64,000 nucleotides of DNA from Paraphaeosphaeria minitans (taxonomy: Eukaryota; Ascomycota; Dothideomycetes; Pleosporales; Didymosphaeriaceae), in contig WJXW01000015.1 in the NCBI GenBank assembly GCA_015832175.1, positions 930,001 to 994,000 of the forward strand, in the 5' to 3' direction. The position numbers and the translations under genes were made by a program. Position 1 is the stretch's first letter. Each line of letters opens with the position of its first letter. Under the pieces are notes generated by a model. It saw nothing but the letters and a program-made list of their open reading frames with translations. It made no database searches and was not told where the DNA came from. Positions 29,253 to 55,721 of this stretch are shown piece after piece.

Positions 29253-29254
29253 TA

Positions 29255-29875: not shown

Positions 29876-30242
29876 CCTCATAGAGTGTGCGGTGCGAGTA
29901 GTGCTCGAATTCAATGCTGTGCTCGGTCCTCGACTTTGCCGCTTATGACTTGCAATATTAGCTGATGGAGGGCGTTTCCGTCTAGGGTGTTCGCTTCCCC
30001 ATATGTTTGTGGACGTTCCCATTGCCATCTTGTGCCCCATATAGTTGTAGTTCAGTGGCATTGTGTCATTATTACCCTTCCTTATGAATACATCCTCGTC
30101 GAAGCTAGCCGCCGCAGCATTTGGCCCATAACTACTCGGTGGTGCCTTGACGTCAATGCGAATTTCTGCTGTAGTAGAAATCGCTGCGCCTACTGTCAAA
30201 CTTGACGACGGATACTGATGAACAAACTCCTCTGCGTTGCTC

Positions 30243-31502: not shown

Positions 31503-31700
31503 TATGAATGCAGTGGAAATGAGTGATAACTATTGAAGAAAACTATTGAAGAACGGCGATAATAATAGAAAGTAGACTTGAAGGGTAAATAAACAACTTA
31601 CATCTTCGTATACCGTCAACTCACGATTCACACTTTGCCAAGCATTGGGGGATTTTCACACCACCATATGAGCTCTAAGCCACCAAAAACCATGACTCAA

Positions 31701-31899
31701 CTAGAAATGCTAGTGCCAGTGGTTAGACTTGGGAACAATCAAGCTGATCGACAGATTGATTCGCGAACGTGCCACGGGTAGGGACATGCCCACGTTCACG
31801 GAGCACGCGGTACCACCTGCACGCTCGAATCGGAATCAATCTGTAGAATCAGCTTGATTGATCCCAAGTCTGCCAGTGGCTGTATCACATGCTATTTCT
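31701..31899. repeat. MITE-like inverted repeat
   Basis: Left arm (about 31701-31765) and right arm (about 31825-31899) are inverted copies. The core AGACTTGGGAACAATCAAGC on the left matches AGACTTGGGATCAATCAAGC on the reversed right, followed by ACAGATTGATTC, with outer TAGAAAT ends. No open frame or obvious target duplication is visible. The CTTGATTG motif and CAGTGG-like ends suggest an hAT-type non-autonomous element. Confidence 0.72.
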
Positions 31900-34800: not shown

Positions 34801-35658
34801 GAATGTCACTGCTAGTATGGCGTATTCGTATGAGTACTCTAATACTGTGGCGCATGTGACGCAATTCTCGATAGACTTGCAATTATCTCTATTTTGAGTG
34901 ATCTCACTCTCTTTCTTCAGAGCGCAGCCTAGTTTTTATATCTACGGTCTCAACTTCAGCTCTTCGGTCTGGCCGACGGCCAATCCGATATTCTCAGTCT
35001 CACCGAAGGTCTAGAATTTCGGTCTCTCCTGGTCAGATATCACCATATTTTCTAGACCTGCCAATATGGCGAAATGTGTAGAAGTCTCTGGTCCATCCAT
35101 TGCAGTTCGGACCTGATCCTCCTACAAGTCAACTTCGAATATTCGTCGCACCTCATTGTCGATTGCGGGCGGAAGGTGGGGTAGATTGTCAATGAAGACA
35201 CGAGCGGGGTGCATATTCCGTATACGATACGTTTGCGGGCGATAGTCTCTTGCTAGGACTGCACATTGAGATCTGTAAGGGCGTGTGCGAGTCGTTAGAA
35301 CCAAGTAAAGCAAGGATAATTTTGAGGAGGCACGGGTTGTGAAGGCGGGAAGGCTCATGCCTAGCCGCTAACCCATGACAGCATCGTAGCCTGTTATAAG
35401 AGCGGATTGCAACCAACTCCAAACTCATTCGTGACTCGAGGGTCTGTCAAATCGACGCCCTTTGTCTCCTGAAGTCGCGCTCTAGTTTCCATATTAATTC
35501 ACTTCACAAGTCAAAATAAGTGGTGCTCCTTCTCAGTCGCTACCAAACAGCATTCTTATTAACCGCCTATTTCATGCTCTCTTCTACTCAGTAACATCTC
35601 GAGAGTTTCTTCGGCCTACCCTGTCACCCTTCCACGCGACTGTTGTTTCTTCTAGATC
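31900..35658. other. 3.7-kb gene-poor stretch
   Basis: No gene is supported. Open frames such as 33841-34257 (+) have no recognised family, no conserved neighbour and no splice structure. I see no repeat boundaries either, apart from sequence becoming AT-richer towards 34.9 kb. Confidence 0.35.
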
Positions 35659-36505
35659 ATGGACGATGAACACCGATATGATCCTACGTTCAAGCCTTGG
35701 GGTCCGCTGATATCGCCGCACTATGTTGACGAATATATCACCAAGTCCGACATAATGATTGCTTCCATAGTCTGGGGATTAACATTGATTAATGTTATCA
35801 TCGCGATATATATTGGATATGGACAAACAAAGACTTTAAGCTCCCCGCTGCGGAGCGTGTATATCTGGATGATATGGCTAGAGCTGCTAGTGTCATTCAT
35901 CATGGGCCTTGGATGCTTTCTGCACCTGTTAAAGTATATTAAACCAAGTAAGGTCCTAAATATCTACACAATCAAGATAATGTACTAATAAGTAACAGGC
36001 TTTGCGTTCTATTTCACCATCCGTAAGCATGCCACTTTCGTCGAACGCATATCGGCAGCAGAATCCAGCAGCTAATACAATATTGTGTTCTGGTGGTGTA
36101 TTCAGGTCCAGCTATTGCTGCAGATTATCATCAACCGAATTCGAGTCATTGTGCCCGACCGCAAGCGGTCACGACTTGTATTAATTGGGACTGCTGTTTT
36201 CGTCACCGCTATCAACATCAGCGTTTTCAACGTTTGGATACCAGCGCTTGCAAATTAGTGAAAGGTATGTAGGATTTATCATGTCCAAGCTGCTCTGAAA
36301 TCCCCTTTCCTGAGAGCGCATCCCGAAAGCTTGGTGTGAGAAGGAGAAGAGTCCCCCGGTGGCTAGTCCAATGTCACTGCAAAGACTATTTAAAGGCGTA
36401 CGAACCTGCTGTCTTACTTGAGGCATCATTTCATCAACGAAATCTGGGATCGCATTGAGAAAGTTCTGTACCTACTTGTCGACGGGGTACTCAACTGGTG
36501 GTTCT
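35659..36505 (+). pseudogene. Paralogue of the 30.2-31.5 kb membrane protein, broken
   Basis: ATG at 35659 starts a homologous protein (YIWMIWLELLVSFIMGLGCF parallels the intact gene). Exon 1 ends at 35947 with GTAAGG; exon 2 is 35999-36022 (FAFYFTI), at the same position and phase as in the intact paralogue. The tiny third exon has a recognisable remnant (WWCIQVQ) but no AG acceptor before it. Exon 4 (VQLLLQIIINRIRVIV, NISVFNVWIPA) then loses its frame by about 2 nt near 36228 before RLQISERY. About 170 bp of unrelated sequence precedes HHFINEIWDRIEKVLYLLVD, and the gene ends at the hAT element near 36505. Confidence 0.8.
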
Positions 36506-38775
36506 CACAGTCCGCAACAAGCAAGTCAATCAATCTTGGGGTCGTCGATTGGCTTGCTTGTTGGCGACGTCGTCGTCGCTTGATTGTAGCTTGATTGTTG
36601 GTGTTTTCAGGCAGCTTGATTGCGACTTGATTGGTAGATTGATCAGATTGGACGCTAAGAGATTAAAGTTGTATACAACTACAGTGGCTTAATAATCCAC
36701 TCCTGTAACTATATTGTAGTATTGTACGATATCCTCGTCTGATACGTCCTCCTCATTGTTGCCCTCTGTACTCTTGTTGTACGTAGTCTTGAAGCCTGCT
36801 CTTGTCCACGATCGTATGAGTTGAAGAGCAGCTAGTAACTCACTGCCAATAGCTCGTCTTTTAGGCTCGAGTAAGTCGCCAAGCTCACTAAAGAGCCTCT
36901 CACACTCACAGCTTGATGCTGGAATTGTCAGTATATCGATTGCAAGCTGGCTTAAACATAGGTATTTTGAGCGCATTTGAATCCAGTAGGCGACTGGGTG
37001 ACCATCACCTAAGTACTGCTCTCTGCTCCACTCTGGCTCTCGTGTCCTCCAGCGCTCTTACTCGTCGTGATGAGCTGCCTCGTCTCTGGTGTTGTTGCGG
37101 CGTACAAAGGCACCAATTACGTCATCTATCCCACTTGCAATTGTTGTTGTGTGGGGATGAGGTTGAGAGTGCCAGAGTCGCTGAAACCCAGCGTTGGCAG
37201 CCGTGAGCCACTCTGGCTTGTCAGCCCAGCTGTTCTCGCAGTAGCACTTGTAGTAAGGATAGAGGCAGACAGGAGCGTACTAGGCAGGCGATCTATCGAG
37301 CTTATCGTAGTACTCGTTAGCCTTACTCCAGGCAGCGCGTAGGTTGATATGAAGGTATTCCCCTGGCGCGTCTGTGTAGTTGAAATCGACTTGCTCGTAT
37401 GGCCGCGTGCGCGCTTCGAGCGCGCTGAGTACGTACTCAAAGATAGGTATAACCTCGTATATAGCACCAAACTTGCCTGCTTTCCCGCGACCCTCAAGCC
37501 GCTCTGTAGCAAGCTTTAGCGGCTCTAAGCAGTCCTGGTACTCTGTTATTACTGCCCAATCAGCAGCTGTAAGACCAGTTGATCGTATCCAACTTGGAGC
37601 GTCTAAGAGCTTGTTGCCAGCTTAGTTTGCGCGTCTATCGTCGAGAGAGACGCAGCTAATGTGGTGCTCAGCGTAGGAGTTATAAGCAGCTTGAAGTTGA
37701 GTTGCGCGTGCAAAGGCAGCGTAGTACGAGTTCCAGCGAGTAACAACAGGCTTAACTAGCTCGAGTACTCGAAGACGCTCTCCAGCAGGCAACTCAGCGT
37801 TTGCAGCTCGCTGAAACTCTCTAAAAAGCTCATACTGCTGTGGCGTTTTGATGTAGTTAATAACGTCGATAAGCACGCTCAACGGCCCATCTTTACGCCA
37901 CTCGCGCAAGTACGACTCCTCTCCATCGAGCTGCTCAGCAGCGTTGTTGTATGCCTCTCTATCCTTGCCAAATATAATTGCCTGGCCGATGAGATTGAGC
38001 GTGTGAGGGCCGCAGCGGAGGCGTTGATGAGTAGCGTCAAAGTCGTATACGCGAGCGAGCGCGGCAATTGCAGTGTCGTTATTCGTAGCGTTATCGAGTA
38101 CGAAGTAGCCTAGCTTGTTACTAGTAATACTGTACTCCTCGAGCGTTTTGACAATAGTACTTGCAATAGCTTCGCCTGTATGCGAGCCTGCTAGCTGTGG
38201 CAGAGCGATAGGCAAGTCTTATATCACTCCAGAAGCGTTAGCAAAGTGCGCAACAATCCCAAAGAATCCGCGCTTGCCGCCTCTTGTCGTCCAGCCGTCA
38301 AAGCTTACGTGTATTTTACCAGCAGCTTCTGACAGGGCCTGGACAACTTGAGGCTGTATATAGCGGAAAAGGCGCATCGCGTATGTAGCAACACTACGAG
38401 GACTTACCCACAACGCTGCCTCAGCCTCTAGGTTTACAAAGTTTGTCATCTCTCGAAAGGAGGGCCTTGCAAGTAGCTCTATTGGCAGGTTGTTATTGAG
38501 TAGGCAGAGTACTGTAGCTTGTCGAAATTGCTGTATATTAAATTTACATATCGCGTTGGCAGCGTGCTGAGAGACCTCAACACCAGCCTTAAAGGCTTGT
38601 CGCAGAGAGAGCTGCCCACTAGAGTGTTGCTGTTGTTTGATGTCGCTCTTTGTAAGCCGATGGTCATGTTTCTGCTGCCCGAGATGAGTAGCTGCAGCTG
38701 TTGTAGCTCTTGTTACGTTAAACATGCCGCTTGCTGCAACTTTGTACCAGTCAAGTCGCGTCTTGTAGTAATCCA
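36506..38775 (-). pseudogene. hAT-family transposase, interrupted by stop codons
   Basis: Read downward from about 38760: HLGQQKHDHRL, KIHVSFDGWTTRGGKRGFFG, LGYFVLDNATNNDTAIAAL, QRLRCGPHTLNLIGQAI, VVTRWNSYYAAFARA, and the C-terminal dimerisation block SQLAIDILTIPASSCECERL, ending at 36689. These match fungal hAT transposases. In-frame TAA codons at 38219-38221, 37622-37624 and 37058-37060 interrupt an otherwise open frame; the first two fit CAA (Gln) to TAA. The downstream end (36510-36660) has at least four CTTGATTG motifs, likely subterminal binding sites. It lies inside the membrane-protein paralogue. Confidence 0.85.
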
Positions 38776-39046
38776 CATCAGTTTTAAATGCGGTTTGTCC
38801 ACCATTCGTTAAATCAGATGGGTTCGCTGGAGGCCGGTCTCCGATCGCCGCCCGTTTCTTATACGTTTCGATGTTTGGCTCGGTCGGAGGGGTCGGCTCC
38901 GTCTTCGGCAGGGCATCGCTCGTAGGGTCGACGAGGTGCCAAACCCTAAGTGATAGGCATCTGGCTTCTAGCTGCTCGTACCAAGGTTTCCAGCTCATAT
39001 AATCTGTGAGGATAATGTCGGAATCGCGGTTTGTTGGTTGCGCCAT
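38776..39046 (-). pseudogene. Copia-type gag N-terminus fused in frame to the hAT transposase
   Basis: The ATG at 39044-39046 starts a Ty1/copia gag-like region (ILTDYMSWKPWYEQLEARCL, SLRVWHLVDPTSDALPK, DVDYYKTRLDWYK). The same reading frame runs on without a stop into the hAT sequence (about 38740-38775) and only ends at 38219. No capsid, protease, integrase or RT follows. It is probably a recombination or insertion junction rather than a working fusion gene. Confidence 0.68.
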
Positions 39047-39430
39047 TGCTCTCGCGTAAGGTTGAGGCAGTGAGACTCTTAATTGTCAGATAAAAATGCT
39101 AAAAAATGCGCTTAGAAGAAATTGATGATTGCGATGATGGATTATGTGTTGATCATTTTTTTTTTGATGGTCGGTGTTGTTCTCTCTCCTTTGGAACCAC
39201 AGACCTGATACATCAGTGATATATAGGTGATACCGTCCACGACGCAGTATTCGCGTACTTCATCTGACAATAGGTTTCGTACTCTCCTCCTGCCTATTAG
39301 CAGATTTGAACGATGAGTTCGATGTCATTAACTAGGACAAGGTATATAATGTTGTTGTCATGTCGATACCTCTTACAGCTGTCGCTAAACTACAACTGTC
39401 AGATCTCACGTATTGTGCGAATTCTGATGA
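39047..39430 (-). mobile_element. Possible copia LTR/leader upstream of the gag fragment
   Basis: The sequence immediately 5' of the gag ATG has the layout expected of a 5' LTR and leader: a TATATA box region near 39340, a T-rich leader, and a purine-poor segment before the ATG. I cannot define LTR ends because no second copy is in the window. Confidence 0.3.
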
Positions 39431-39932
39431 ATTTTGAATAATGGATTTGATGAAATTGATTGATTGTGTCTGTGTTTTCGCGTCGTGCGTCTTAGGAGTT
39501 TTTATGTTCTTGTGTTCTCCAATGCTCCCATCGGCAGGCTCCTTGTCCCACCTCGGGAGCCAGCCACCTCGCTTTGGTTACGGGAACAGGGCTTCTGTTA
39601 TTTGACAACAACAGTCTCCGAATCCAGCGGGCTGTATTGGAACTCCATTACCTTCTTCCTTATAGAACATTGCTTTGTGGCATAAATAGCTGTAGATGTC
39701 GAAACAATTGCAAATACCTTACCTTAAACATAACTAGTTCATAAAGAATCAACAAGTCTATAGTCGATAACTATCATCCCTACGATCCCCATGTCACACC
39801 AGTACCCGAAGAACAAGTCAACAATTGAACCAGCGAAAGAATCGAAGTGAAGTAGTACAGCCGGAGCACCGCCGCTACGAACAACCCAACTCTATCACAC
39901 ACCTGGACAGGGACGGCCAGCCACATGTGTCC
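39431..39932. other. Intergenic
   Basis: No gene or repeat is recognised. This is AT-rich sequence 3' of the deoxyribosyltransferase-like relic. Confidence 0.35.
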
Positions 39933-40496
39933 CTATGCAGATGGATTTTCTCTCTTTAAGATCTCCTCAGCCTTGGCAATCGCCGTTTCAACGAGTTCGT
40001 CAAAATCGTCAAGCAACAGAACATTGTCTTTCCCACACAAATACTGGACGTTTCCACGGCGATGATATCCTTCCGGGCAGCAGACAATGATCTTTCCAGA
40101 TTGGGAATAGCGGCCCAGTTCCATTAGTGTGACGGCGCTGATGGTGTTGGGATGAAAATAGAAAATGATGAAATCAGCCTTGTCGAGATTCGTCATTTCC
40201 CAATGTATTTGGTGACGGAGGGTCCTGTTCGTGATATCTTGCTCCAAGCTGTCGTCCCAACGAATTCGGCGAGGGATGAATGCGGCCATGGGAAGAGAGG
40301 CGATTTTGTCTGCGAACGCGGCTTGCCAATCGGGAGCTTTGCCCATCTCGATGCTGCCTCCAACGAAGATTCGTACACGATCGCCAACGTCTACGTCGTC
40401 CAGAGGGCCGCAGTGTATGAATGCTGGATTTCATTCCGGCTTTTCCGCCATGTATGAAGTTAGAGGCTCTCCTTGATTGGTTTCTGGGAACTTCAT
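39933..40496 (-). pseudogene. Nucleoside 2-deoxyribosyltransferase-like gene with an in-frame stop
   Basis: The frame from ATG 40494-40496 (KFPETNQGEPLTSYMAEKPE) meets TGA at 40431-40433 and continues in the same frame. It encodes VRIFVGGSIEMGKAPDWQ, FIPRRIRWDDSLEQDI, HWEMTNLDKADFIIFYFHPN and TLMELGRYSQSGKIIVCCPE, ending at 39933. The order GSIE, R-x-W, W-E, FYF-PN, LELG and CPEG matches the Nuc_deoxyrib_tr_2 family, which transfers or hydrolyses the N-glycosidic bond of deoxynucleosides. The only downstream ATG (40346) would remove the first strand and GGSIE, so the stop probably inactivates the protein. A small unrecognised intron covering the TGA cannot be excluded; a CTAAC lies nearby but no good donor is visible. 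Confidence 0.7.
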
Positions 40497-41875
40497 GGCT
40501 GAAAATGGTGGTCGAATTGAGTGACAATATGCTTTCTTTGAGGGAATTGGGGTGATGGAGAAAGAATGATTTAGTTTATGGGCATGAGCCGCTTTAAGTA
40601 CTTCGTTGAGCACTGCTCTTGTGTTGATTGGTGCGGCGCAGTGCCAACTTGTGCTATACCCATACAAACTCAATGGTGCGTTGTTAACTTCAATTGGCTG
40701 CGGATCATATTAAAGCTCATCATGCACAAGGCGCTGTGACAGCCTTGGCTTATGCATTCTATTACGTTGATTTGTCCGGGCTCAGCTGACTGGGGCCCGT
40801 TTAGGACCCCAGTTAGGCAGAGCCCGTTTTAGCCGCAGAAGGTGTAGATGACAGCAGAAGAACACAAGTGAGGCTTGTTGCACAAACCCATCCATGCAAA
40901 CGCTGGTACAGACAACTCTGAATTATCTAACAGACTTACAGGTTTTTCCTCGACGACTACTTTGGGGTCGGAGGGGGCCGGAGCGAAGCAATGACCTAAT
41001 GTCGTGGCCGGCCTGGCCAGCAAGAAACAGCGAAAGAGCTAATCAGAAACCAGGCCTACTACCTAGCTTGACACCGAAGGAACACATCGCCACTGTGGCT
41101 CATATCGCAGGAATTCATGCAGTTGGCACCGCCGTTCATCGATTGGAACATGCCTTGCTTTTGGATAGGATGCTCAGATGGACTGAGCAACGTCCGGCCA
41201 GCCTACAAAGTAAAGGAATCCCGTCATCCTTTCGGCATGGGGCTCTGCCGGGAGGTCCCATTCCCTGGTTCTACCTTGTCACCCAAGGAGGCTAGTGTAG
41301 GGTCTCAAAAGTGAATCCTCTGAGAAGATGGACAGGGATATGTTGTTCTGGCCTCCTAGGTCCTACTCAGGCCCCTGTCGGTTTGGATTTATAGATCCCT
41401 AAGATTTTCAGTCCCTTTCTTAGAATGCCCTATTCTAATGGTTGACTTCTAAGAGTTGACCTGAGCTGATACTGTGGGGTATGAAGGAGAGGTGGGCGAA
41501 TAGCTGGACCAGCCTCACACATACACAACAAGGTGATGATGTCAGGCCAGCGATACTCCACGGTAGCAGGCAGCAATTTCTGCCCCACCGCATTATACGG
41601 CTCCGGTTCGCCCTTGAAAACCTTCCCCTGTGGCGGAGCTGATGGGCCATAAAAGGCAACCACTCCGTTTGGGGCTTATACTAGACTTTATGGCCATGCT
41701 TTGCTTGCAGGGCAAGGTAGGAAAGCCCATTCCAAAGGAAAGAAACCAAGCACGCATAAACTGCGCCTTGCTTCTGGGAGTCGTTAGCGGCCAGTTGTGT
41801 CTCTATTCGCACAGAGTACGTGCGCATGGACCGGAGACTAACGCAGTACCAGTCATATAACGTGACTCAAACCAA
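40497..41875. other. Gene-poor stretch
   Basis: No supported gene. Frames on both strands (for example 40894-41295) carry no known motif. I see no convincing terminal repeats. Confidence 0.3.
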
Positions 41876-42178
41876 GTGAGCACCTACGGGTGTGGCGCGG
41901 ACGAGATAAAGTCACTTTCCGCTAACAGTGGTCATTCGACGATGCCAGCTGATGGCCATCCCAACACGCAGCCTAGTCCCGCACAAAGCGTACCGCCTAG
42001 AGCTCGGCGAGCAGCGAACAACAATTACCAGAAGCCATCTGAAAGACTGTCAAAGCTGTGCCGAGAATATGACGTCCACATATACTTCCTAGCCTGCCGC
42101 AATGACCGATTCAACGGCTTCGTATTTACAAAGGAGACAGGCCAGCCATCGTCACCATCAGATCGCATCCACCTCTAG
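41876..42178 (+). CDS. Small MADS-like/unknown protein fragment
   Basis: A 100-codon frame with a disordered N-terminus and the C-terminal block LSKLCREYDVHIYFLACRND, then RFNGFVFTKETGQPSSPSD. This resembles a fungal family of short proteins related to the second half of MADS-box domains (LCDADVYL-R-G-FY-Y-S pattern). No exon with the basic DNA-binding half is visible upstream, so it is probably partial. Assignment is tentative. Confidence 0.35.
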   Translation: MSTYGCGADEIKSLSANSGHSTMPADGHPNTQPSPAQSVPPRARRAANNNYQKPSERLSKLCREYDVHIYFLACRNDRFNGFVFTKETGQPSSPSDRIHL

Positions 42179-42414
42179 TAATGAAGTCGTCAGGCCTTTG
42201 CCGTCGGGCTGAAAGGAGGATCATTTAGCAAGTCACGTCGTTTGACCGAATCGGCATAGCCCAAGACACGTGAGGTGGAAGGATTATGTCAGAGCAGGTC
42301 GACATGATGACTAAAGGTGCGCATTTCAAGGCTACCAGTACTACACCACGCGAAATGCGCACGCTTGCTATCACCTGTACACTATACATATCATTTTTCA
42401 AATTTCTTCACCAG

Positions 42415-42640
42415 TTATTCGAGCTTTCCATGAGCACTGTGAGGGCTTGGATGAATTTCTTATTCCTCTTCGCCCGCTTTTGAAGGGCCTTCTCGTCCCT
42501 CGTAGCCCACTCTTGAAAGACTCTCACCAACTTCCCTTTTCTTTCTTCTAGCGCTTCCACTCTTGCTTCCAGTTCCTGAATCCTTTTTTTTTGCCGTTGA
42601 TAGAGCTAAGCTGTCAGATTTAAAGGGATTTTTAATGGCG
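42415..42640 (-). pseudogene. Coiled-coil C-terminal relic
   Basis: The minus strand reads KKRIQELEARVEALEERKGK then LVRVFQEWATRDEKALQKRA and ends with a stop near 42417. It follows a 9-base A run, which may have caused a frame slip relative to the upstream sequence. It looks like the end of a longer helical protein; the family is unknown. Confidence 0.35.
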
Positions 42641-43294
42641 TGGTGAAGATCACGATGATGCACCGTGGGATTGTTGATCGGGTCTGATGATGATTGTGTC
42701 CTCTGTCTAGATCGTGGCTAAGGGTTCTAGTGTTCTAGCATTTAGCGCGTCACGTGCAGTTGGCCCCTAACCTCTAAGCCTCGGTTTACTACTGCCGTTT
42801 ATCTGACACCAACACACAACTTCCGGAGCTACCCCAGCCAACGGTCCCCCGTGCATGCAAACGATGTCCACCAACAGGTAAACCTTTCCTCCCGTCACAA
42901 GCAAGGTGCTCACGAAGTCGGAATCAGACAGGCAAACGCTTCCCATCCACTGCCTCCATGCTGCCGAACCTGCAGGGCGAAATCTCCGCTGACTCTTCGA
43001 ATCTGCGGCCGAAACGCAGCATATAGCTACTGGATCGTGGCGCTGGATCTTTCGACCGCAGCTACTAGTTCGCTCGACAATGGCCTGTCACAGGTTTCAG
43101 TGTCGCGACTTCTTCGCCTTGAGCAATCAGACCGACATTCAAGGCGGTCACTAGGCCATTTCTACCCTCACTCCTTGAACACTTGACGGCATCTATGCCC
43201 TCTCCGCTAAAGGAAGCCTTCGTTGTCGACATCAAGCGCCCACTTGTGGTAGACACCATCGGTTACAAGGTGCAACGAAGTCGTGAGCTTAGCG

Positions 43295-45871
43295 TCACTT
43301 GCATCGAATCGACTGGGCCATGCCGTTCAACTCAAACATCGCCCGCTGTATCTCCCGCGTGCATGCAGAAGGCTTTGCCTGTCCTTGCTTGGTCGAGCTT
43401 CCTGTCGGCCTCTTCCTTTTCCGGTTGGCCGAGATGACACCTAGCACAGTCCGTTGCTCGACCTCTGCTCGCTCGAAGTCGATCACCATGACGCGGTTCG
43501 TCTCCTCGTTCCACAGTATGTTGCGAGGCATCAGGTCCTTGTGCAGCACCCGCAGCCCATGGATCGCGTCGGCCGACTGTTTCACCTGCTCGTTGACCAA
43601 CGCTTTGTTCTTCGCCGTAAGATGTTGGCCAATGGGATGCCCTCCGAAGCTGAGAAACATCATGTGCACAAGCTGGACGATCCCTTCGTAAAAGTATGGC
43701 GTCTCCAGGTCGATGTTTCCCAAGTGCACCGGCACGTGGATGCCCTGGATCGGCCGAAGCCGCTCGTAGATGGACGCCTCCCGTCGCAGGCGATAGACGA
43801 AGTAGGCGGGCGTACACTTTGCCGCCACAGTGTATCCATGCGATCGCAGACGGACGCGAAAGAGCACCCCGCACGCACCAGGCATGCTCACGGGATCGCA
43901 GTCCGTGTCTAGGTCGTCCGCAAGCTGTTGACGTATGAGGGCAAGGAACGTTGGTCGATCGATCTGATGCTTTCTCTCTCCGTGGTAGCTAGCGTTAGGA
44001 CACGACCTGTCGAGCACACCGCCTTCGGCAAGCCCGCGCAGGCAGTCCTGCGTGCAGTATTGCCTCTCCTGTGTTCCTCGGCCGCGCCTGCGCCCGCGCT
44101 CGCGCCCGCTTGACGAGCTACCGGCAGTCCCCTGCGTGCGCGGCAAGTGCTGCGACGAGGACGGATGTCGACTCGGCGTGTACGGGTCCGGCTCCGGTTC
44201 CTCGTCACTCTCCTCACGCCGCCTCTCTGCTTGCAAGCAGCGGGGCGAGCTAGGCTTCGCTATCCTGCCCCGGAGCTGCACAGGCGACATGCGGAGGAAG
44301 CTGTCGTCCTCCGGAGGCTGGTACTCCGACGACTGCGTAGTGCCTTCGGGGATCGCATCCAGCAGCTCGTCATACACCACCTCCCAGCTGTGCAGTTGCG
44401 CCGCCGCCGCCGTCCGCCACGCCTGGGACCGTTGCGGTGTCTTCAGCGCCTGGAGAGTGAAGGCTAACATCTGTCCCACCGCTGTCAGGTGCAGCCGGTT
44501 CGGCCCCTCCGAGCCGGCTGTCCACCCCGTCGTTGCTCCCACATCGCCCTTGGGCACCGAGAGGAAGTAGTGCACCGTCCTAGGGTCGTCTCCCACCCGC
44601 AGGAAGATGTACGCTTCGCCTGTGCATACGCACCCATACTCCACTCCGATGCTGATCATGTAGGAGAATGCCTGAGTGATGACCGCAGCGACCAGCCGGC
44701 GAAAACGGTCTCTCAACGTCTCGTCTTCGTGGCACTGCACCACCTCCTCGAGTGCCATCTCGCCCAGCCCCTCGTAGATGTGGCCAAGCGGGAGCTTGTG
44801 CGGCGCTTTGAACTCTAGAATGAAGGCTGCAATGGACTTCTGTGCGTTCCGAGTCGTGCCGGTGTTGTATACGCAGAACTGGTCGGCCCGAGGACGCGAC
44901 AAGCCTGCTGTCCTGGCGCGACCAGCGTCCTCCGCTTCGGCCGTGCCTGTCGAGCCCGACGGCGCTGTCCCTTGCGCTCTGGCTTGCAGGCGCCGTGACT
45001 GCCGTTGCCCAGTCCCCGACACCGTCAGCTGCTCCATGCCCTCGTCCAGCTGCGATTCTGGGCTGAGCGTGTTGGCGTGGTTCTCGAAGTTCACCGAGCC
45101 CCGGAGCCCAAACTTCCGCCGCAGTCGTCGGTCGCCGTGCAGGCTCTGGATGATCAACGATACCTGGTCCTCGACCGTGTTCCGCTGGAAAAAGTTGAGG
45201 TCCAGCTCCGAGCTCATCATCCGCCGCCGCACAGCCTCGCCCGTCTCCTCGAGCGTGTGCAGCGACGTGAAGTGCCGCTGGGGCGCGAAGCCAGACTCCA
45301 TCAGATCGTCCCAGATCGTTGCCTGCCGAGCTGGGAAGTCCTCCCACAGGGCCAGCCTTTCCGGTCGACGCTTGTTGTTTGCGTTGGCGGGATTGCCTCG
45401 CGTCGACAGTGTCGCGTCGGTCTGGACGGTGAGGCCCGAGTGGAGGTGGTTGTGGCAGGCATCGAGGAACTCGAGAAGGGATGTCTTGCGCGTCTTCTCT
45501 GCGGTCTGTTCCTGGGCTTGCTCCGCCTCCTCGCGTCTGCGTTGTTCCTCCTCGCGTCTGCGTTGTTCCTCCTCGCGTCTGCGTTGTTCCTCCTCGCGTG
45601 CTGCTTCCGCTTCTTTCTGCGCGTTCTCCGCTGCTTCACGCTTGTGTTGTTCCTCCTCGCGTCTGCGTTGTTCCTCCTCGCGTGCTGCTTCCGCTTCTTT
45701 TTGTGCTCTCTCCGCTGCTTCACGCTTGTGTTGTTCCTCCTCGTTTACGCGTTGTGCCTCCAGATATAGAGCCTTATAGTCTGGTGACCTCTCAGCCATG
45801 TCGTTGCGATAAGATCTTTCCCTTCTGTAGTGGGTCCGTCTGTGGCGTTCTTCGTCGGCGGAAATGAACAC
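43295..45871 (-). CDS. Spok-like protein: coiled coil, PD-(D/E)XK nuclease, Cys/His cluster, kinase
   Basis: One uninterrupted 858-codon frame (numbered from 45871). A second in-frame ATG at 45799 (residue 25, AERSPDYKALYLEAQ) sits right before the coiled coil and is the likelier start, giving 834 residues. Order: heptad-repeat coiled coil (about 45-125); PD-(D/E)XK-like nuclease region with D330 and ILEFK at 351-355 (E353, K355); a C606-x3-C610...C624...H630 cluster (QYCTQDC, RSCPNASYH); then a protein kinase with VAAK (K685), E698, HKDLMPRN (H777, D779, N784) and DFE (D798). This is the architecture reported for Spok spore killers of Podospora and their relatives, where the nuclease part is linked to killing and the kinase part to resistance in the same protein. 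All recognised catalytic residues are present, so it looks functional. A nuclease-kinase protein of other function (for example Crinkler-like) remains possible. No intron is evident. Confidence 0.78.
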   Translation of the reverse strand: MFISADEERHRRTHYRRERSYRNDMAERSPDYKALYLEAQRVNEEEQHKREAAERAQKEAEAAREEEQRRREEEQHKREAAENAQKEAEAAREEEQRRREEEQRRREEEQRRREEAEQAQEQTAEKTRKTSLLEFLDACHNHLHSGLTVQTDATLSTRGNPANANNKRRPERLALWEDFPARQATIWDDLMESGFAPQRHFTSLHTLEETGEAVRRRMMSSELDLNFFQRNTVEDQVSLIIQSLHGDRRLRRKFGLRGSVNFENHANTLSPESQLDEGMEQLTVSGTGQRQSRRLQARAQGTAPSGSTGTAEAEDAGRARTAGLSRPRADQFCVYNTGTTRNAQKSIAAFILEFKAPHKLPLGHIYEGLGEMALEEVVQCHEDETLRDRFRRLVAAVITQAFSYMISIGVEYGCVCTGEAYIFLRVGDDPRTVHYFLSVPKGDVGATTGWTAGSEGPNRLHLTAVGQMLAFTLQALKTPQRSQAWRTAAAAQLHSWEVVYDELLDAIPEGTTQSSEYQPPEDDSFLRMSPVQLRGRIAKPSSPRCLQAERRREESDEEPEPDPYTPSRHPSSSQHLPRTQGTAGSSSSGRERGRRRGRGTQERQYCTQDCLRGLAEGGVLDRSCPNASYHGERKHQIDRPTFLALIRQQLADDLDTDCDPVSMPGACGVLFRVRLRSHGYTVAAKCTPAYFVYRLRREASIYERLRPIQGIHVPVHLGNIDLETPYFYEGIVQLVHMMFLSFGGHPIGQHLTAKNKALVNEQVKQSADAIHGLRVLHKDLMPRNILWNEETNRVMVIDFERAEVEQRTVLGVISANRKRKRPTGSSTKQGQAKPSACTREIQRAMFELNGMAQSIRCK
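45490..45770 (-). repeat. In-frame heptad/28-residue tandem repeats in the Spok-like coiled coil
   Basis: A 21-bp unit (7 codons, REEEQRR) is repeated in tandem, and a larger unit of about 84 bp (28 codons, HKREAAE-AQKEAEAAREEEQ) occurs almost identically twice. All copies keep the frame and the heptad register, so length changes by slippage would lengthen or shorten the coiled coil without breaking the protein. Confidence 0.85.
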
Positions 45872-45997
45872 TCAAATATGCCTGCTGCATCAGTGTGGGA
45901 GATACTGCACACGCGAGATCCTTGTGTGGTCGAATGGTAGATTTGATAGCTGTACTGAGAGGAAGAAGTTGCGAGATTCGTACCGCTGTTTGGCTGC

Positions 45998-48414
45998 CTA
46001 AACTCTTGGCGCACAGGCCCCTGCGCGCGGTTGCCCCCCCAACGAACATGACTCCGGTGCCAAGAAGTGGGCACCTCGGCTAAAAGCCATTTGCGAAACA
46101 ACGGGCCATCGCGCACCGTCTTCATGCCTCAGAGGTATAGTCGCAATGCTGAGTAGAACACCATCCACGTTCTTCATATCGTACGCCAAGGAATGTTGCC
46201 TGTGGTAATCTTCGGTACTAGTGCAAGGTGAGCATTCCTTCAGACACTCTCTCTTTACCGTTATGAAAACTCTGGCAAGTTCGGGATGCTGTTTATCTCG
46301 GGTCAAGGCGAAGAATCGGACCAACGTTGTGGCTGCGATGAAGTGCATGGACTGAGAAGAGATCTCGCAAGCGTCTACCATTATGTACATTGTAGATAAA
46401 TGATTGTTAAGCGTGTATCGAAATGGTCAAGTCTTCATATCTTACCGCGCTAATCGCTGTCTCCTCCAGTTTCTCCAGTCCCCTCTTGAATAATGGCTCC
46501 GTCCCGTCTGTTCTTGTCATCGCTGCGAAGGCCCTGCACAACAAGTCCTCCGGGGATATGGCTTGATCGCCGTCCAGTGCATTGATTGTCCTCCACTTCA
46601 GGCGCAAGATGCGGAGGTCGTTTACAGCCAGCACTCGGTCTACCGTTTCCAGTGTTTCCGCGCTAGGCTCGCTTTCTATCATTCGTTATCCGTCGCTCGC
46701 TGATCCATGCAAAAAGAGCTTCACGGTAAGAGGCAAATAGACGATGGAAGGCTAGCTTGAACTGCTGCTCGTGTTCAGCCCATATCTCTTCCAGGCTGCA
46801 CAACAGATCAGCTTCTTCAACCTCGTATCCATCCCTAGGGAACAGGTACCCCAATAGGAGCTGTAGAAGCTCGCACTGTAGGATGGTCACCTCGCGTGGA
46901 GCAGGCAGCGCATCTCGCTCGGAACTGCTATGATGTTCGATAGTGTGGCCAATAGTATGGTGTAGACTGGGAACCCCATCCGGCGACAACGGCAGCACTC
47001 GGGTAGCGTTGTTTGTGCGTACGGCGGTTGCAGATTGAGGAGCGTGGTTCTGAAGGCTAGCCGTCGCAATGGGAACCGCAGAGGTGGTAAAGACCTCTGT
47101 CGGGTACGTCGTCGTGGCTTGTGGCGCAAGTCGGGTTTGAATATACGATGTATCGGTGCCCGTTTTCCTTCCAAGACCGCTCTGATGCTGGGTAGAAGAT
47201 GAAAAAGGGCGCAGTCGCTCATGGCTGCTCGATTCGTTAGGAGTCACTGGTGAGAGTGATACCTCAGGAAGTGGGCCATCACTGCCGGTAGTACTTGAAG
47301 CGGCCTGCACGCTTCTTATGCTAGAACTATCGCTGCAACTATCGCTGGCGAAGGAGTCGCTTCTTGGAAGCTGATTGACGGCAGTGAATGTGCTTGCACG
47401 ATGGTTGGCAGGACTGTGCGCGCCGTTCAGTCTACTTCGAAAGGGAGGATTCGTTAGCGTCGTAGCTGTTCCGGAAGGGGAAGCGGACAGTGTGCGCGTG
47501 AGCCGAGATGACAAATGGGTGCCATTTGGAGTAGGTGTATGGGCAACATTCTCGCTACCATGTCTTGACGGTGAAAGAGGCTCTTGTGAGAACGCTTGGG
47601 CAGACATGGTCGCGTTTAAGCAGGTTCGCTTTTCGGCAGGGCCAGTTGTGATGGTAGAATCGCCTTCCGTATACAGGATTGCGATGTTGGTGTCGGCTGA
47701 TGTTGGTGTCGGCTTTTCGCTTCCCCAAATCATTTCGTTGCGCCATAGCGGGTCTGGCTGTGACTGTGTCGTAAATAGCAATCGTTTCAGCCGTCGATGC
47801 TACTGTTGACTGTTACTACTGTCAGAAAATCCACAGTGTAAACCAGGGAGATGAGGGCATTACTACCGATGTGGACCTGTCGCCCGCAGCTGATAGCCTC
47901 GGCAGCTTCCTTGGCTCATTTTGTTTGTACGTTACGCCGTCTTGTAGATCCATCAATGAAGGTGGGTTTTCAGTCAACAAAAGGTCAGCAGTCTGGAAAT
48001 GCTTACTTGGTAGGCGACTTACATCTCTCTGTCGACAGGGACTTCATAGAAGAGACCCTTGCGATATGTTGTCGAATTTCCAGGTGCTAGTAATAGTCGT
48101 TTACGGTCTGCATTCTTACCCCAAAGGACAGGACCATGGGTAGTCAATAACTCGTCCAGCTCCTTGTCGATCGTGTTGGGAGTCGATGCAGATTCAAGTA
48201 GAGCGTGTAGGTCTCTAGGAAGGTTCTTAGACACTTTTTGCACTCCGTTGGATAAGTTTCTTAATTCACGCTTAGAGAATCGTATGGCACCACCGCGTTC
48301 TGTAGCGCAAGAAAGGCCCAAACATTCAGTAATTTCGCGAATCGTCGGGCCTTGACTGCTGAACAATACTGCCCAGTCGTCTTTACTCCAATGCTGAAGC
48401 GAAGAATCTCTCAT
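45998..48414 (-). CDS. Hypothetical multi-exon protein upstream of the Spok-like gene
   Basis: Proposed exons: 48414-48023, 47909-47867, 47799-46663, 46682-46446 and 46351-45998. Splice phases fit for introns 47910-48022 (GTAAGT...AAG), 47800-47866 (GTAGTA...TAG) and 46352-46445 (GTAAGA...CAG). Between the third and fourth segments the frame changes by one near 46670 without a visible intron, so the gene may carry a frameshift. The N-terminus (SKDDWAVLFSSQGPTIREIT, LWGKNADRKRLLLAPGNSTT) is globular, the middle is Ser/Thr-rich and disordered, and the last exons are helical (LVRFFALTRDKQHPELARVF). I do not recognise the family. It is on the same strand as the Spok-like gene and ends about 130-200 bp before it. 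Confidence 0.5.
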
Positions 48415-50244
48415 AGTGAATGGTGTCCGCTCGTGACTGTCGTTCGGGGACGAGTTCGATGGGAGGGGCCTGAGGAGGAAAGCTCGTGATGTTAGGTTTT
48501 CTCCATGGAGGTAGACGAAGGAAGGTCGAGGGGTGAGGACATAGGATCGAGGGGTGATGATGGAAGCTAGTCCCGAGTCAATTAGACAGCTTGGTGGCTC
48601 GAGCTTTCATGTTAGCATTGAAAAACGAGGCGCTGTCGGGGTTACTAACCACTCCAGACGCGACAGGCTTATGCTGACTGTAAGCAATCACGCTACTGTG
48701 TCCGAGGCTTTTTCCGATGAGGTGATGCTGATTGCAGGCAAAACGTCATTCTTCATGCTAACCCGTTTCATAGGCTTACCGGCCACCCAAGCTCGCGGTT
48801 GTCAGATCACGGAGTTTTTGGATGGACGAGATGCAGGATAGGATGGTTATGGCCGATGCAATCGTTCCCTCAAGGTACACTGCACGGACACTGTCGCGGA
48901 GCCATCGCGTGACCTTTGTCACGTGCTCCGGTTGGGCTCAACGTCCGACAGAGCAAGTAGAGATTCTCCGCCGTTTTCGTTGTTCTCACTCGCAACTGTG
49001 CGAGAGCCTGACCGAATGCTAGCCTTCTGGGAAGGAAAGTGTTCTGCCGATAGAGTTATGATGGCAGATTCTGTCAGCTGAACAACATGCTCCCATCGAT
49101 ATGGTCCTAGATAGTAATTGTATCTTGGTTGTCGGGCCGGAAATGGTGAAAGTTCATGCTAAGATGTCATTATGATATAAAGTGGTACACCGAGGTATGC
49201 AAGACCGTGACTGGTGAGACTCGAATGATGATGGGATGCGGCAGGCTGCATTTCCTGTCGCGGAGACCACTCGTGTCCACTTGCAAGGGTACTGAAGGGT
49301 ACACCAACAGCAAAGCTCCGAAACCATGAACGAAGCTAGTCGTGAGCATGCTTTAGTCCCCAAAGTGATCGAATGGATTACGCAGCCCAATCGTACGTGA
49401 AATGCATATCCGTTCCAAAGCGGTGAAGATTACACTGTTATTGGTGGTTTTGGTCGAACAGCTGAACCATTGCCGAGCGAGTGCACTTTGACCATCCTTC
49501 TCGCTCGCTAGCGGCTACCCATCCTCGCACCTCTTACTCGCATCATCTCCATGAATCGAACAACTGCCACGAAACTCTAGGCTTCTTGCCCTCGTGCAAG
49601 TTCACAGTTAGACATCATAGAGTACATTTCCCATGACGAAGCCGCCGGAGCTCACTCAACTAACATGAAATAATTTCCCATAAGACTCCTCTTGTTCTTC
49701 AGAACCGTAACTTTAAGTTAGGTGCATCAGCTATGGCTTAATAGAGCGAGAGGAGTCATTCCTAAGACATTAGGGGCGAAAAATAAACATTAACGTTAGT
49801 ATTCGCACGGTTTGTCGACCTGCAGGTAGGGATGTCACGCGATATTAGTCACCTCACAAAGATCTCCAATATGTAACTATGGTAACATCAGTTGATGATA
49901 TGCTAAGCAAAGAAGGTGAGTGCAGACTAGCCAACACGCGGAGGTCAGCACAAGTCACGTCGATACAGCCCTTGATAACGCAACAGGAATTGATTAATTA
50001 CTACCGTGTTCCACTAGTTCCGTCACAGGCCTCACCACCGTATTAGTCCAGCATGTCTATCACGAGTAGGACAAGAAAACTAGCGTTAGAGATAACATTT
50101 GCAGCACATCGAAGAACATCGTCTGACGAGAACTACACCCAAGCGAGGCTGCGGTCTTACATAGGCGCGCCTTTCGACGGAAAAGTTGGGATGTCGTAAT
50201 TGTCGTGGAGTGGCATCGCAAGTGGCCGACTCCAGCGTACAGAA
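48415..50244. other. Gene-poor stretch
   Basis: I see no coding sequence or repeat with recognisable content in these 1.8 kb, which form the 5' flank of the gene at 48414 and the 3' flank of the Rds1-like gene. Confidence 0.35.
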
Positions 50245-52001
50245 TCACAGTGTTAGACTGACAACGACTGGGCCTGCTAGTGTAGCTGCCGTCAGCTCGT
50301 CGATGCTGGTGAGTTCTGGCTGCGCTGTCAGGACTGCAAATGCCGTCCCGGAGAGTCCTGGCGGAACGCGTGTTGTGCCGGAACCGTCTCCAAGCGCCGT
50401 CAGCGAAGTAAATACCGGGACATCCAGCTGGTCTACCCATCCGACGAACAATGGCTTGCCCGACCGCGTGGCGGCAGCCCTTCCCGCAGCATCCCAACTG
50501 AAAGTGACCTCGGTACCCGGCCGAGCGTATCCAACAGTCCTGTCGTTCATGGTGAGGGTCGGCAAAATGGGTAGAGGCAGTTCAACAGCGCATGAGCCAG
50601 GCTGGACATAGCCCAGCGCCAGATTGTATGCCCACGCTGCTGATGAAGGTGTCTCGAACGATTCTATGCTGGGGTTGGAGACAGTATGAGTATGTAGGAG
50701 TGCATTCTGTTTAGCTGCGATGCTGGCCATACTGGACAGCAAAACGGTAGCTGGGGTGTCTGTTGGAGGGAGCGATTCTGCCAGAGACATGAAGACGCCC
50801 AGCTCGATAGATTTCAAGACGGCCATAAGCGTGACTAGCTCGGTTGCGTTGCCGGGAGCACTATATTGGCAGGGAGTCACATGTTCGCCGCCAGAGCGAC
50901 GAAGCAGCGTTTGTAGAGCCTCCAACTGCATCTGCTCTTGCTGTTGTGGTCGCCTGAGTAAGTAGACGCTAGCAGAGAAGGTGTGGAGATAGAGCTTACC
51001 TCAAAGATATCAGCGACCAACGACGCGAGAGAGGAAGCACCATACTTTGCTTCTGTTGACCGCCGGGTGTACAGTTTACTCGTGTTAAGAACCGAGACAC
51101 CCAGGTTCTTCAAGAACTGAGCTAGCTGAAGAGCGTCGACTGCCGACGGAGACAGGCTTATCGTTGCATTTTCCGAGCTCGACGCTGGCCTAGGTGTCGA
51201 CAATGCAGGCGTTGAAAGGCTTGTGGAGGCTGGCGCTTGTGCTTGTGTTTGATTCATCAAACTGGAGTTGTTACCAGCGGCTGTCGGAGTGAGGTCGTTA
51301 CCGGATGATAAAGCACCACCGACGGCAGTCACTGTAGGGGCTCTGCTATCGAATGTTGTAGCACGGTTTGCATCTGATGCATTGCCACCGGTTCCTACCC
51401 CAGTAAGGGCCGTGGGCAAAGCACCAGTGCTGGAGGTCGACCCATTGCGACTCGTGTCAGTCGTGTTGCCACTCGCCACCGCCCTACCAGGGTCTGCCGC
51501 GAAGCTGTTGGAGTTACCCGTAACAGAAGTAAGTTTTGCGGTCACAGTGTTGCTGCTGGCCACTAGGAGTGGACTGGTCATCATTGCGCCTTGACTCGCG
51601 ATCGACGAGAAAGAGCTGCGAAGCGAAGAGTCTCGCCCAGAAGCAGAACTACGCGAGGAAGCCCCACCGTCGGTCCCATTGCTACCCAGGGTCGGGCTGA
51701 GTATGCCAGTTTGAACGCCAGATGCAGCCAGTGGACCAGTGCTGCTCACTCCTACAGGGGCTGCAGTAGAGATGGCGCCACTGAAGGTGACTGTGACAGG
51801 GGTCGTAGTCAGGGTAAGACCACTGTATATCATCGTGATCGATGGCCATATGGTACCGTTAGAAAAGGGGCCGCCAGATCTAGGAAAACAGTACTGCTCG
51901 AAAGTAGAAAGCGCGGAAGCCGTGGTCGAGGCACCGTCGTTCGAAGCCCTACTGCAGCCTAGCAGAGCGCTCGTCGTGAGCAGGAGAACGTATTTGGTCA
52001 T
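50245..52001 (-). CDS. Rds1-like/ferritin-like secreted protein
   Basis: Exon 1 (52001-51000) and exon 2 (50940-50245) join in frame across a 59-bp intron (GTAAGC...ACAG), giving 565 residues. The start at 52001 was chosen because it opens a signal peptide (MTKYVLLLTTSALLGC); an ATG 18 codons upstream would bury it. A long Ser/Thr/Gly-rich region with many N-glycosylation sites (NGT, NTT, NNSS) is followed by a ferritin-like (Ferritin_2) domain: LAQFLKNLGVSVLNTS, IFEQEQMQLEALQTLL, then PCQYSAPGNATELVTLMAVL and the C-terminal beta-rich segment (TFSWDAAGRAAA, GTAFAVLTAQPEL) typical of fungal stress-response protein Rds1 relatives. Probably cell-wall or extracellular; no iron-binding role can be claimed from sequence alone. 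Confidence 0.78.
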
Positions 52002-52748
52002 GATGCAGCAAAGCTCGGCAGTGAAATGCATCGAAACGTGTCGCAGCGGCTTCATATAATTATTTTCTAGACGCAGTGCTTATTTCCGACCATACGCGTG
52101 TTAGCATCATGATGCAAGTCCATTACTGCTTATGCAGACGGCTTACTAACATATCGGTGACTATCTGCTATTGTTCAGAATGATGACCTTCTCACGGGGA
52201 GATCGAGTGTTTCACCTCCGTTCCCTACACCCCTGTACCTATGCATCAGGTTTTTCGGTCATTGAGGAGTATGCAGTGAGCATGTCGATTCTTTCAACCA
52301 TTCCGCTGTAACGTCTTAGACGCTACACGTGCGATCTAGATCACTGCAGGAGGCTATGTAGCGGCCATATGTGTCTTCGCCCGGTAACATCATCGTCAGC
52401 AACTGCAGTAAAATTCCTTTATTTCTTTGGTGTTTCGCCATATACACTAGGTATGTCTGGAAGAGATGTTGTCTAATATGCTCTCAAAGGCGCGAGACGG
52501 CAGGTACAGCCAGTCAATCACAACATAGAGAGACTAGTGGAGTAGAGAAAGTGGCAGTATGCATCAATGTATATTCATGCTATTACCTGCCACGACACAA
52601 GAATTCAAGCTCGCCTGCAACGCATTTCTATTACGCAAAGCCGAACCCGTTGTTCATTTTGACCTTTCACATCTGAAAGTTAGGCCGGTTGGGGTTGCTT
52701 TGGTGCTGCTGCTGCATGAACCTAAACACTTGCTGTTGGATATCATGG
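52002..52748. other. Intergenic
   Basis: 5' flank of the Rds1-like gene. No other gene is supported. Confidence 0.35.
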
Positions 52749-53159
52749 CTAGAGACTGGATGTTAGTGGTCTGAATCCAATTCGAGAGACGGACACATAC
52801 GGCAGTTTGTCTTGCTGTGAGGCCGGAACTGAGCGCTCATCTGTGTCACGCTGCGCAGTCTCCGGCAGTGGTATCCGACCTGGCCGAGCGCCGTGCGTGT
52901 TCTGTGCATTCGCTGACAGTGGCAGCGGATCCGAGCGGCGAGGGTGCGATTTGAGCAGAGATTGGATGGCGGCTAACTGCCTCCTTATTGCCTCCTGCGA
53001 AGCATCTCTAGTGTCTTGCCGCCCTTTGAGTGCTTCGAGTGCTTTCAGGATGTAATTCAACAGCTGATCCTGGCGTTTTCCTCGTGCGATCTCGGCGCTC
53101 GTGAGCTCGTGCAGTGCTTGGACGATCTCATTCTCGTGGCTCTCGGGAGCAATCTGCAC
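52749..53159 (-). CDS. Hypothetical protein with short coiled coil, probably partial
   Basis: An open frame with a helical N-terminal half (NEIVQALHELTSAEIARGKR, LLNYILKALEALKGRQDTRD) and a Pro/Ser/Arg-rich C-terminal half. The frame opens with GTG and has no good ATG, so an upstream exon is likely (an ATG in another frame lies near 53218). No family is recognised and it could be a relic. Confidence 0.35.
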   Translation of the reverse strand: MQIAPESHENEIVQALHELTSAEIARGKRQDQLLNYILKALEALKGRQDTRDASQEAIRRQLAAIQSLLKSHPRRSDPLPLSANAQNTHGARPGRIPLPETAQRDTDERSVPASQQDKLPYVSVSRIGFRPLTSSL

Positions 53160-55721
53160 ATCTGGCCGTCCGTCCCTCGTCGCGCTGCTGAAGGTTTGTC
53201 AGCCATCTTATCGACCTCAGCGGGAAGTGTGTGCATTCGCAGCGTGGTCTGCTCACCTTGCTTGCTCCGCTGCAAAGTTCCCAGAGGGCCCCAGAGGCCC
53301 AGGAGAGAATGAGTAAGGTACCTCACCACTCACCATGCCTGAGAAGTTTGTATTGAAGAGATGTGCAGTATCTGCGGTGAAGTCTTCGGAAACCATCTTG
53401 AGAGAGATCTGTGTGCGTGTGGGCGAGTGGCAGGTACGCTGACACAGGGGAATGTGAGCCTACTATTTATGCTATTGTGCCATCGTCGGTACCGCGGCAT
53501 ATACCCTGCCATCTCCATTGCGACAGAGCTTGTTGAGCTACGATGTGGGGACGTGAATTCGACGACTGGCTCGGCGGCTCCATGCTCACAGTCGAAGGCG
53601 GCTATAGTTTGGATGGGGCCGCGGGATGGGGTCTCTGCTCTGCTCGCAATCAGAGAGTATGCGTATGATAGTAAGCAGTCGGTCTGAAAAGCGGCGTAAA
53701 GTCACTTACGTTTTAGTGCCCTGCCTCCCCCCGCCTCCCCCTGTTTTTAGGGCTTTCAACCGCGAGTGAGCGAGACTCGGTCTGTTGCTTACCGAAGCCG
53801 CAGAAATGGAAGAGAAAATATTGGTGCTAAGCGCCGCACGCATTGACGTCGGGAAAGATAACAAGTGAAGAGAAAAGGCTGACGCAAGCAGCGACTATCA
53901 AGGATTCGTTGGAGTCCAGCAAGAGACTTCCGAGCCCTAACCGTAAGTACATGGACGTGAGGTGGGAGCGTGCCAACGATCCGCCTTTCTTCACCGGTTT
54001 CACCGGCGGCCAAGGGCAGTTCCAGATGATTGGCTGTAGTGGAAGCAAGACCGATCCGTGTTGCGTTGATGATCGGACCACATCATGTTCGTGTGAGCAG
54101 GCTTGTGGATCACCATCGATAGAGAGCCATTGGATTGCTAACCCAGGGTAAACACGTACGAGGAGGGTACGCGTGCGAAACCTGCTGGCCTCGCGGATAA
54201 GCATCGCGGCAGCGTCAGGTTTACCTTTCCACCAATACGACCTTATGTACTGGTTCCCACCTAACTTCCGCGCGGATGCCCCACGCCTTGCAATTGTTGT
54301 GCGTCAGCCTAGTAGGGATGGTGGAAATCCCATACTCTCAGGAGAAGTGTGCGTAACCAACATGGTAAGCCGAGCCATCGGGACACTTCACAGAAGGCAA
54401 TGTTACGAGCTTACGGACCATCGCTTTGAAGTTCGATAGGACGACTAGAAAGGACGCCTTGCAGTGGGCGCCGAGCAGGCCGCCAACCCTCAAGGTTCGA
54501 ATGCTGGGTGGTCAGCCTTGTCATTACGGGTATGGAGAGATCAGGGGTTCAGAACTGTGCCCCATCCGTTTGCTACTATCAGCTAGCCGCAGTAGGCTTA
54601 GACGAAGCATGAGCTGCATACACCCGCATACATCGTCGGTCATGTGATGACATCCATCAGTCGAGGATGCTCGGAGTAGGCCAGCAGTGTGCTATGTGGG
54701 TGCATTCCGGAAGAAGTGCGAATATGGCTTTCTCGTGAGCTAACAACATGGGATCTAGTCCGAGACGACTTTATCGCCGTCAAGCCGCGCCTATTCGCGG
54801 TTAGCATGCGATAGCAGGTCGTAGTCAAGGATTCCCTGTCTCGCGGAGACGGGGCACGAGCACCAGGGTCTCTAGCAAACAGCCGCAAAGCAGCTGTCCA
54901 CTGTGCCGTGTATTGCACCGGGAGAAGACGCGCTTCCGTAGCAAGCGGGCCGAAACACCAGAAATGCCTGCTAGCTGACTGCGGCTCACACTTCCCATCA
55001 TGGAAGGCATGCATCTTGATTGAAGCCTCCGCAGGCTGCCAGCCGCCCCAATTTCAAAAGGGCAGCGCCTGCATACAGCGGGCCATTGCCTCGGGACCAG
55101 CCGCGTGAGAAGCGGGGGTTCAGCTGGTTAGTGCGCGTTTACGGCAAGAATACGGTTAGTCAAGCCCACCAGCGTTCGTGTGGAACTCCTCTACGCCAAC
55201 GCGGCAAGACTGAGCGCGCCGTCAACGTGTCCATGCCTTCTGCCGTACGGTACTCCGGAGTTGGCCGCATCAAGTGGTACAAAACTTTGCTGGACCATGT
55301 AAAGCCGGTAGCGGTAATCGAACATCTGCTGCAGCTTGCGCATTCTTACTCCTAGCATATCACGCATCATGGCGATATGCGCCGTCCAGTCAAGGATGTG
55401 TCGGGTCACTTGAAGCAATCTTCATCACGGCCGTCATTTGGCTGCGCATTGATCTACTCTGCCATCACAGGCACCAATCTGGTTGTCTTTACGCTGATCA
55501 ACTATTCAAACACCCGTGCGATTCACGACCAGCACAGGCATCATCGCAAAGCGCGACTTTATCGATGTTACGTCATCCGTCATCGAACCGTCGCTGTGAA
55601 TTCTTTTGGTCCACAGGACTGTGGGGGGTGGCTAGCGCGGGACGCAATGGCTGGGCGGTTGGATGCTCACATAGGTCTAAGATAATGCATCACCACCCAT
55701 GTCAGCACGCTATGCAGCGCA
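53160..55721. other. 2.5-kb gene-poor stretch
   Basis: Several open frames occur on both strands but none shows a recognisable domain, signal peptide or splice structure. A short C-rich run lies at about 53725-53745. Confidence 0.3.

Follow-up and report, generated by a model that had tools for sequence, protein, structure and literature searches.

The closest described relatives of the gene reported here are the Podospora spore killers Spok1-4, whose proteins carry, in order, a coiled coil, domain 1, a PD-(D/E)XK-like domain, a Cys/His cluster, and a kinase, and whose coding frames are intronless, with a coiled-coil length that varies between copies. In Podospora, the kinase together with the Cys/His cluster counters the damage done by the nuclease domain (PMC6660238); SPOK1 acts through DNA in Escherichia coli and yeast (PMC9972908), and Sandell et al. 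propose vegetative action as well (PMC12693581). Within the literature examined, drive has been shown for the Podospora Spoks only; a Nectria homolog killed in Podospora but gave no protection, and toxicity in yeast was seen with two Fusarium poae genes. In other ascomycetes, Spok-like genes are patchy, multicopy, often pseudogenes, and horizontally spread (Grognet 2014, PMC4022471; IPR052396). The gene analyzed here fits that description, and no difference from it was found here. It lies on the minus strand of a 64,000-nucleotide stretch (the window) of contig WJXW01000015.1 (C15) of the fungus Paraphaeosphaeria minitans. In the literature searched, this gene group was not named for Paraphaeosphaeria or Alternaria, one Alternaria review treating Spok in general only, and in some Starship papers Spok was confined to the reference lists.

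The window gene is a real, intact, Spok-like gene, and what is new here is a 33-kb duplication that carries it, with the coiled coil and 5′ flank sharply divergent between the copies. By analogy with Podospora, it is probably a single-gene poison-antidote selfish element of a known kind. Its nuclease-like domain would be the predicted poison, damaging the DNA of cells that hold the protein, and its kinase with the Cys/His cluster the predicted antidote in cells still making the protein. The likely outcome would be the death of those spores or cells that carry the protein but lack the gene, and hence the spread of the gene. Such action may occur in spores, in hyphae losing the DNA around the gene, or in both. 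The persistence of the gene would most likely come from copying and moving with large transposon-rich blocks of DNA.

Reading frame, domains, and comparison with SPOK3

A sequence-only reading of the window had proposed a Spok-like meiotic-driver candidate at 43295-45871. The minus strand over this span is a single uninterrupted open frame, and the predicted order of coiled coil, nuclease-like motif, Cys/His cluster, and kinase was confirmed within it. The proposed start is probably not the true one: the 5′ limit of the span is a GTG, whereas the first ATG of the frame, at 45799, gives 834 codons. Because the sister copy described below has stop codons directly 5′ of the equivalent ATG, the 24 codons before the ATG are probably noncoding, and the ATG was taken as the start. 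Residue numbers used here count from this ATG and equal those of the earlier reading minus 24. The gene and its domains are as follows.

43295..45799, minus strand: Spok-like gene, 834 aa from the ATG, a single stop-free frame
45491..45778, minus strand: N-terminal coiled coil, residues 8-103, heptad repeats, modelled as a single long helix over the same residues
45065..45478, minus strand: domain 1, residues ~108-245, folded in the model, with blocks of predicted local distance difference test (pLDDT) 77-97 to residue 240
44360..44890, minus strand: nuclease-like domain, residues ~304-480, with D306, E329-x-K331, and Q376xxxY380, from conservation and the model
43967..44056, minus strand: Cys/His cluster, C582-x3-C586-x13-C600-x5-H606-x4-H611, from the motif
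43400..43942, minus strand: kinase domain, residues ~620-800, with K661, E674, H753/D755/N760, and D774, and a kinase fold

The claim of an intact catalytic set was borne out, every residue named (D306, E329, K331, K661, E674, H753/D755/N760, and D774) being present. The QxxxY motif (Q376, Y380), absent from the earlier list, is also present, and the nuclease-like D...ExK and QxxxY, then the Cys cluster, then the kinase HxD...N and D all fall in the single frame. A protein search returned 403 matches to residues 120-858 of the full GTG-started frame at E ≤ 0.001, the nearest (best among the listed matches) being a partial Paraphaeosphaeria sporulosa protein 98% identical over 529 aa, and the frame is therefore not a chance ORF. 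From three such searches the best 120 each of 403, 596, and 213 matches were listed; among the resulting 276 distinct proteins (P0002-P0277), many of them nameless, no row was named Podospora. Most listed relatives carry the Pfam family PF27653. The coiled coil is encoded by a tandem array at 45526-45761, in which a tandem-repeat search found a 21-bp unit repeated 7.7 times and an 84-bp unit repeated 2.4 times, and its 7-residue units vary in number and order among the copies in the same genome.

Structure models were made for the full-length window protein and for P0273, a Fusarium langsethiae relative. In the window protein model, domain 1 sits between the coiled coil and a low-confidence linker. 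The Pkinase profile match (E 4e-05) lies under the curated cut-off, and fold searches support the C-terminal kinase fold; a fold search of viral models gave kinases only, besides one polyprotein, one "phosphotransferase," and some nameless rows. The nuclease-like region has a conserved motif and is confidently modelled, the fold-search lists for the full-length models were filled by kinases, and the PD-(D/E)XK label is borrowed from the published SPOK3 annotation rather than from a fold match. An HSDR_N_2 match was found in one of six relatives and was weak (E 0.093).

SPOK3 positions were taken from the text of PMC6660238, with D read as 219 and E as 238. That text places the PD-(D/E)XK motif at 219-240 (residue 240 being the core lysine), QxxxY at 294-298, cysteines at 493, 497, and 511 in a C-x3-C-x13-C-x5-H-x7-H cluster, and the kinase base at D667. 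Their counterparts in the window protein are offset by 87, 91, 91, 82, 82, 89, 89, 89, and 88; with every offset at 82-91, the window protein is nearly colinear with SPOK3 for ~450 residues. The FuSpoks of Fusarium share the architecture of the window gene (PMC12693581). Species and motifs, rather than the tables of that paper, lead us to infer that P0273 is a FuSpok, and the order of helices and strands in its model, judged by eye, matches that of the window protein model.

In a phylogenetic tree of 81 rows (quick search, Shimodaira-Hasegawa-like approximate likelihood ratio test [SH-aLRT] support, midpoint root), the window gene falls in a group with proteins from Pyrenochaeta and Alternaria. 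P0273 lies elsewhere, among 13 rows that form a group of their own (SH-aLRT 100) and include Colletotrichum, Pyricularia, and Ilyonectria but not the window gene; Beauveria and Akanthomyces rows fall on the window gene's side of the tree. Homologs from Beauveria and Metarhizium rileyi are discussed alongside Spok clade II in PMC6660238, and because the order to which Beauveria and Akanthomyces belong has clade II members, a simple placement of the window gene outside the Spok clade is weakened.

Several observations weigh against reading the window gene as a Spok-type poison-antidote element. A profile search of the nuclease-like domain against solved structures gave no supporting match, its sole match being a sortase (E 0.69). 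From D to E the window gene has a spacing of 23, against 19 in SPOK3 (18 if 219 is the P of PD), the K-Q spacing is 45 rather than 54, and the cluster ends in H-x4-H rather than H-x7-H, with D614 occupying the x7 place. The window protein is 36-37% identical to P0273; the 33-34% identity of Spok1 and Spok2 to the Nectria homolog (PMC4022471) is slightly under that value. Four of six Fusarium homologs with conserved active sites had no effect in yeast (PMC12693581), and intact motifs are therefore no proof of function.

The two motif details do not settle the clade, because H-x7-H is rare among relatives and several groups share a D-E spacing of 19. Among 233 relatives with the Cys/His cluster, H-x7-H is found in four (P0206, P0250, P0253, and P0273) and H-x4-H in 187, and H-x7-H is missing even from some members of the P0273 tree group. 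The spacing of 19 was measured in 92 of 226 relatives, spread over several groups, and P0273 has both features. Both were dropped as markers of the Spok clade. The driver-candidate claim is supported as to the Spok-like architecture; a place in the Spok clade proper (Vogan clades I and II) was not established, two details given for SPOK3 being different. Placed by its motifs and by the SPOK3 text positions, the window gene is Spok-like in the broad sense.

Genomic copies and a mosaic duplication

The genome assembly (47.45 Mb, 30 contigs) was searched for further copies at E ≤ 0.001. The nine matches represent six loci, with seven matches on C15, two on C20, and none on any other contig. Three of the six copies are full-length (the window gene, its sister on C15, and C20a) and fall into two types. 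The start region of C20b (L004, upstream of its position 1492) appears by eye to have been replaced by a small inverted-end element. The other copies and the features of the duplication are as follows.

C15:826887-829439: sister copy, 834 aa, intact from the ATG
C20:127759-130047: C20a, 780 aa, intact
C20:277198-279441: C20b, long open frame, start region replaced
C15:1144889: broken copy, 8 stops
C15:82968: broken copy, 4 stops
13926..47091 of the window, no strand: segmental duplication, 33.2 kb, 99.24% identical to its sister at C15:797511-830677
45488..47091 of the window, no strand: divergent duplication end, with substitutions of 9.6% in the coiled coil and 4.9% in the 5′ flank
46595..55248 of the window, no strand: 5′ flank common to C20 (C20:75390-77967 and C20:80255-86322, 94-97% identity)

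The duplication extends in more diverged form over 47203-48696. Over the 29 kb outside the gene (13926-42999), the two copies differ by 0.24%, with 10,102 identical bases in one run, and the gene bodies differ at seven of 2,193 bases (0.32%). Because divergence at the coiled-coil end is far above that of the gene body, the two C15 copies are mosaics whose break lies in or next to the coiled coil. Their ends and flanks differ, which makes two real loci more likely than an assembly effect, and the high identity of the block supports recent copying of the gene within C15.

Repeat-induced point mutation (RIP) was considered as the source of the differences between the C15 copies and was unsupported: the 177 C/T-type differences, counted without known direction, include 33 at CpA, fewer than at CpT (52) or CpG (55). 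In the two broken copies, C-to-T changes at CpA number 20 of 54 and 14 of 42, a somewhat raised proportion that is a weak sign of RIP.

Between the window gene and C20a, the nonsynonymous divergence (dN) is 0.23 and the synonymous divergence (dS) ~1.9, a rough dN/dS of 0.12 that supports constraint on the window protein, and all 16 checked motif residues are kept in 107 of 121 family proteins, the window protein included. The earlier reading held that the gene had been kept by selection or had arrived recently; the dN/dS ratio supports the former, and the duplication supports recent copying. The gene might instead be an inert passenger, intact merely through recent duplication of the surrounding block and no longer driving. 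The near-identity of the 29 kb leaves little time for decay, and three other copies in the genome are damaged, two by stop codons and C20b by the apparent replacement of its start region; constraint acting over the older divergence from C20a and the retention of every checked residue across most of the family speak against a passenger, which we regard as unlikely.

The number of copies bears on a further alternative, a resistance-only allele whose kinase protects while its nuclease-like half is dead, shielding its carrier from Spok-like killers of the same genome. Podospora strain A has a resistance-only Spok2 (PMC6660238), and P. minitans itself carries full-length copies at three loci, in two types, but all of the compared published nuclease catalytic positions are present in the window protein, and within residues 300-475 its lone departure from the sister copy falls on none of the 16 checked residues. 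We regard a resistance-only allele as very improbable.

Mobile surroundings and apparent spread between fungal classes

The C20a protein shares 98.5% identity with a Bimuria novae-zelandiae protein over 721 aa, 91.3% with a protein from the Sordariomycete Xylaria polymorpha over 780 aa, and 69% with the window gene product. The tree pairs C20a with the Xylaria row (SH-aLRT 90) and puts it in a group with rows from Amniculicola (98) and Diaporthe (97). Horizontal spread has been described for Spoks (PMC6660238, PMC4022471), and the likeness of C20a to the Xylaria protein fits horizontal, apparently class-crossing spread.

Matches to DUF3435, the domain of Starship captains, number 20 in the genome (10 on C15, eight on C8, and two on C20), a count of best candidates in which several matches may be exons of one gene. 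C15 and C20, together 4% of the assembly, hold all of the Spok-like matches and 12 of the 20 DUF3435 matches. The sister block has a captain gene ~32 kb to its left (C15:764514); this gene and the captain gene at C20:54643 both lie in an 8-kb stretch shared by the two contigs at 99.3% identity. No DUF3435 match was found inside the window, and the window had no match to the frames of five captain loci; Starship element ends were not found, and the ends of the duplication had no shared 9-mers. C15 (3.4% of the assembly) carries three of 125 Mito_carr, two of 149 Helicase_C, and one of 95 RRM_1 matches, below its share but not absent. We therefore assign neither C15 to the accessory chromosomes nor the window gene to Starship cargo. 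Sandell et al. 2025 report that Fusarium Spok homologs are enriched on accessory chromosomes and sometimes lie on Starships (PMC12693581), so the genomic setting of the window gene is of a known kind. A 1.7-kb stretch beside the captain gene (C15:761351-763054, C20:51482) recurs inverted ~35 kb away, at C20:86564-88268.

Most neighbors of the gene had been read as broken. Transposon fragments are present, but the 723-aa HET-NACHT and 509-aa DDE_1 frames are stop-free.

706-2877, minus strand: HET plus NACHT frame, 723 aa, from domain matches, no stops
39933-40430, minus strand: nucleoside 2-deoxyribosyltransferase-like frame, 165 aa, PF15891 (E 1.4e-27)
27020-28549, plus strand: DDE_1 transposase frame, 509 aa, stop-free, with a Tc5-type DNA-binding domain
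29108-29830, minus strand: DDE_1 transposase frame, from a domain match

HET plus NACHT is the make-up of fungal incompatibility receptors, and families like HET-NACHT and the deoxyribosyltransferase-like one occur in conflict systems. The deoxyribosyltransferase-like frame lies inside the duplication, ~3 kb from the Spok-like gene. The presence of both frames in the window would suit a nuclease-kinase that serves its host, in allorecognition or in defense against foreign DNA, rather than its own spread; a selfish gene would better account for the multiple copies, the broken copies, and the 91% identity to a protein from another fungal class, and a host-serving role is in our estimate quite improbable.

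Elsewhere in the assembly, a 1475-aa Helicase_C frame occurs at many contig ends (e.g., C1:2394 and C1:5151393) and is probably subtelomeric, and the computed open frames reach 12765 aa on C27 and 7932 aa on C30, perhaps from stretches read as N.

Meaning for single-gene drive in ascomycetes

A bolder reading, which we hold to be rather unlikely, is that of a Pleosporales killer lineage that jumps between classes in mobile blocks and may acquire new types by swapping coiled coils and promoters while the poison and antidote domains stay unchanged. Since the gene bodies of the C15 pair differ at so few bases and their coiled coils by nearly 10%, the pair amounts to a natural swap experiment on killer specificity. 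An intact, recently copied, apparently class-crossing Dothideomycete lineage offers a way to examine whether single-gene poison-antidote drive is a general feature of ascomycetes.
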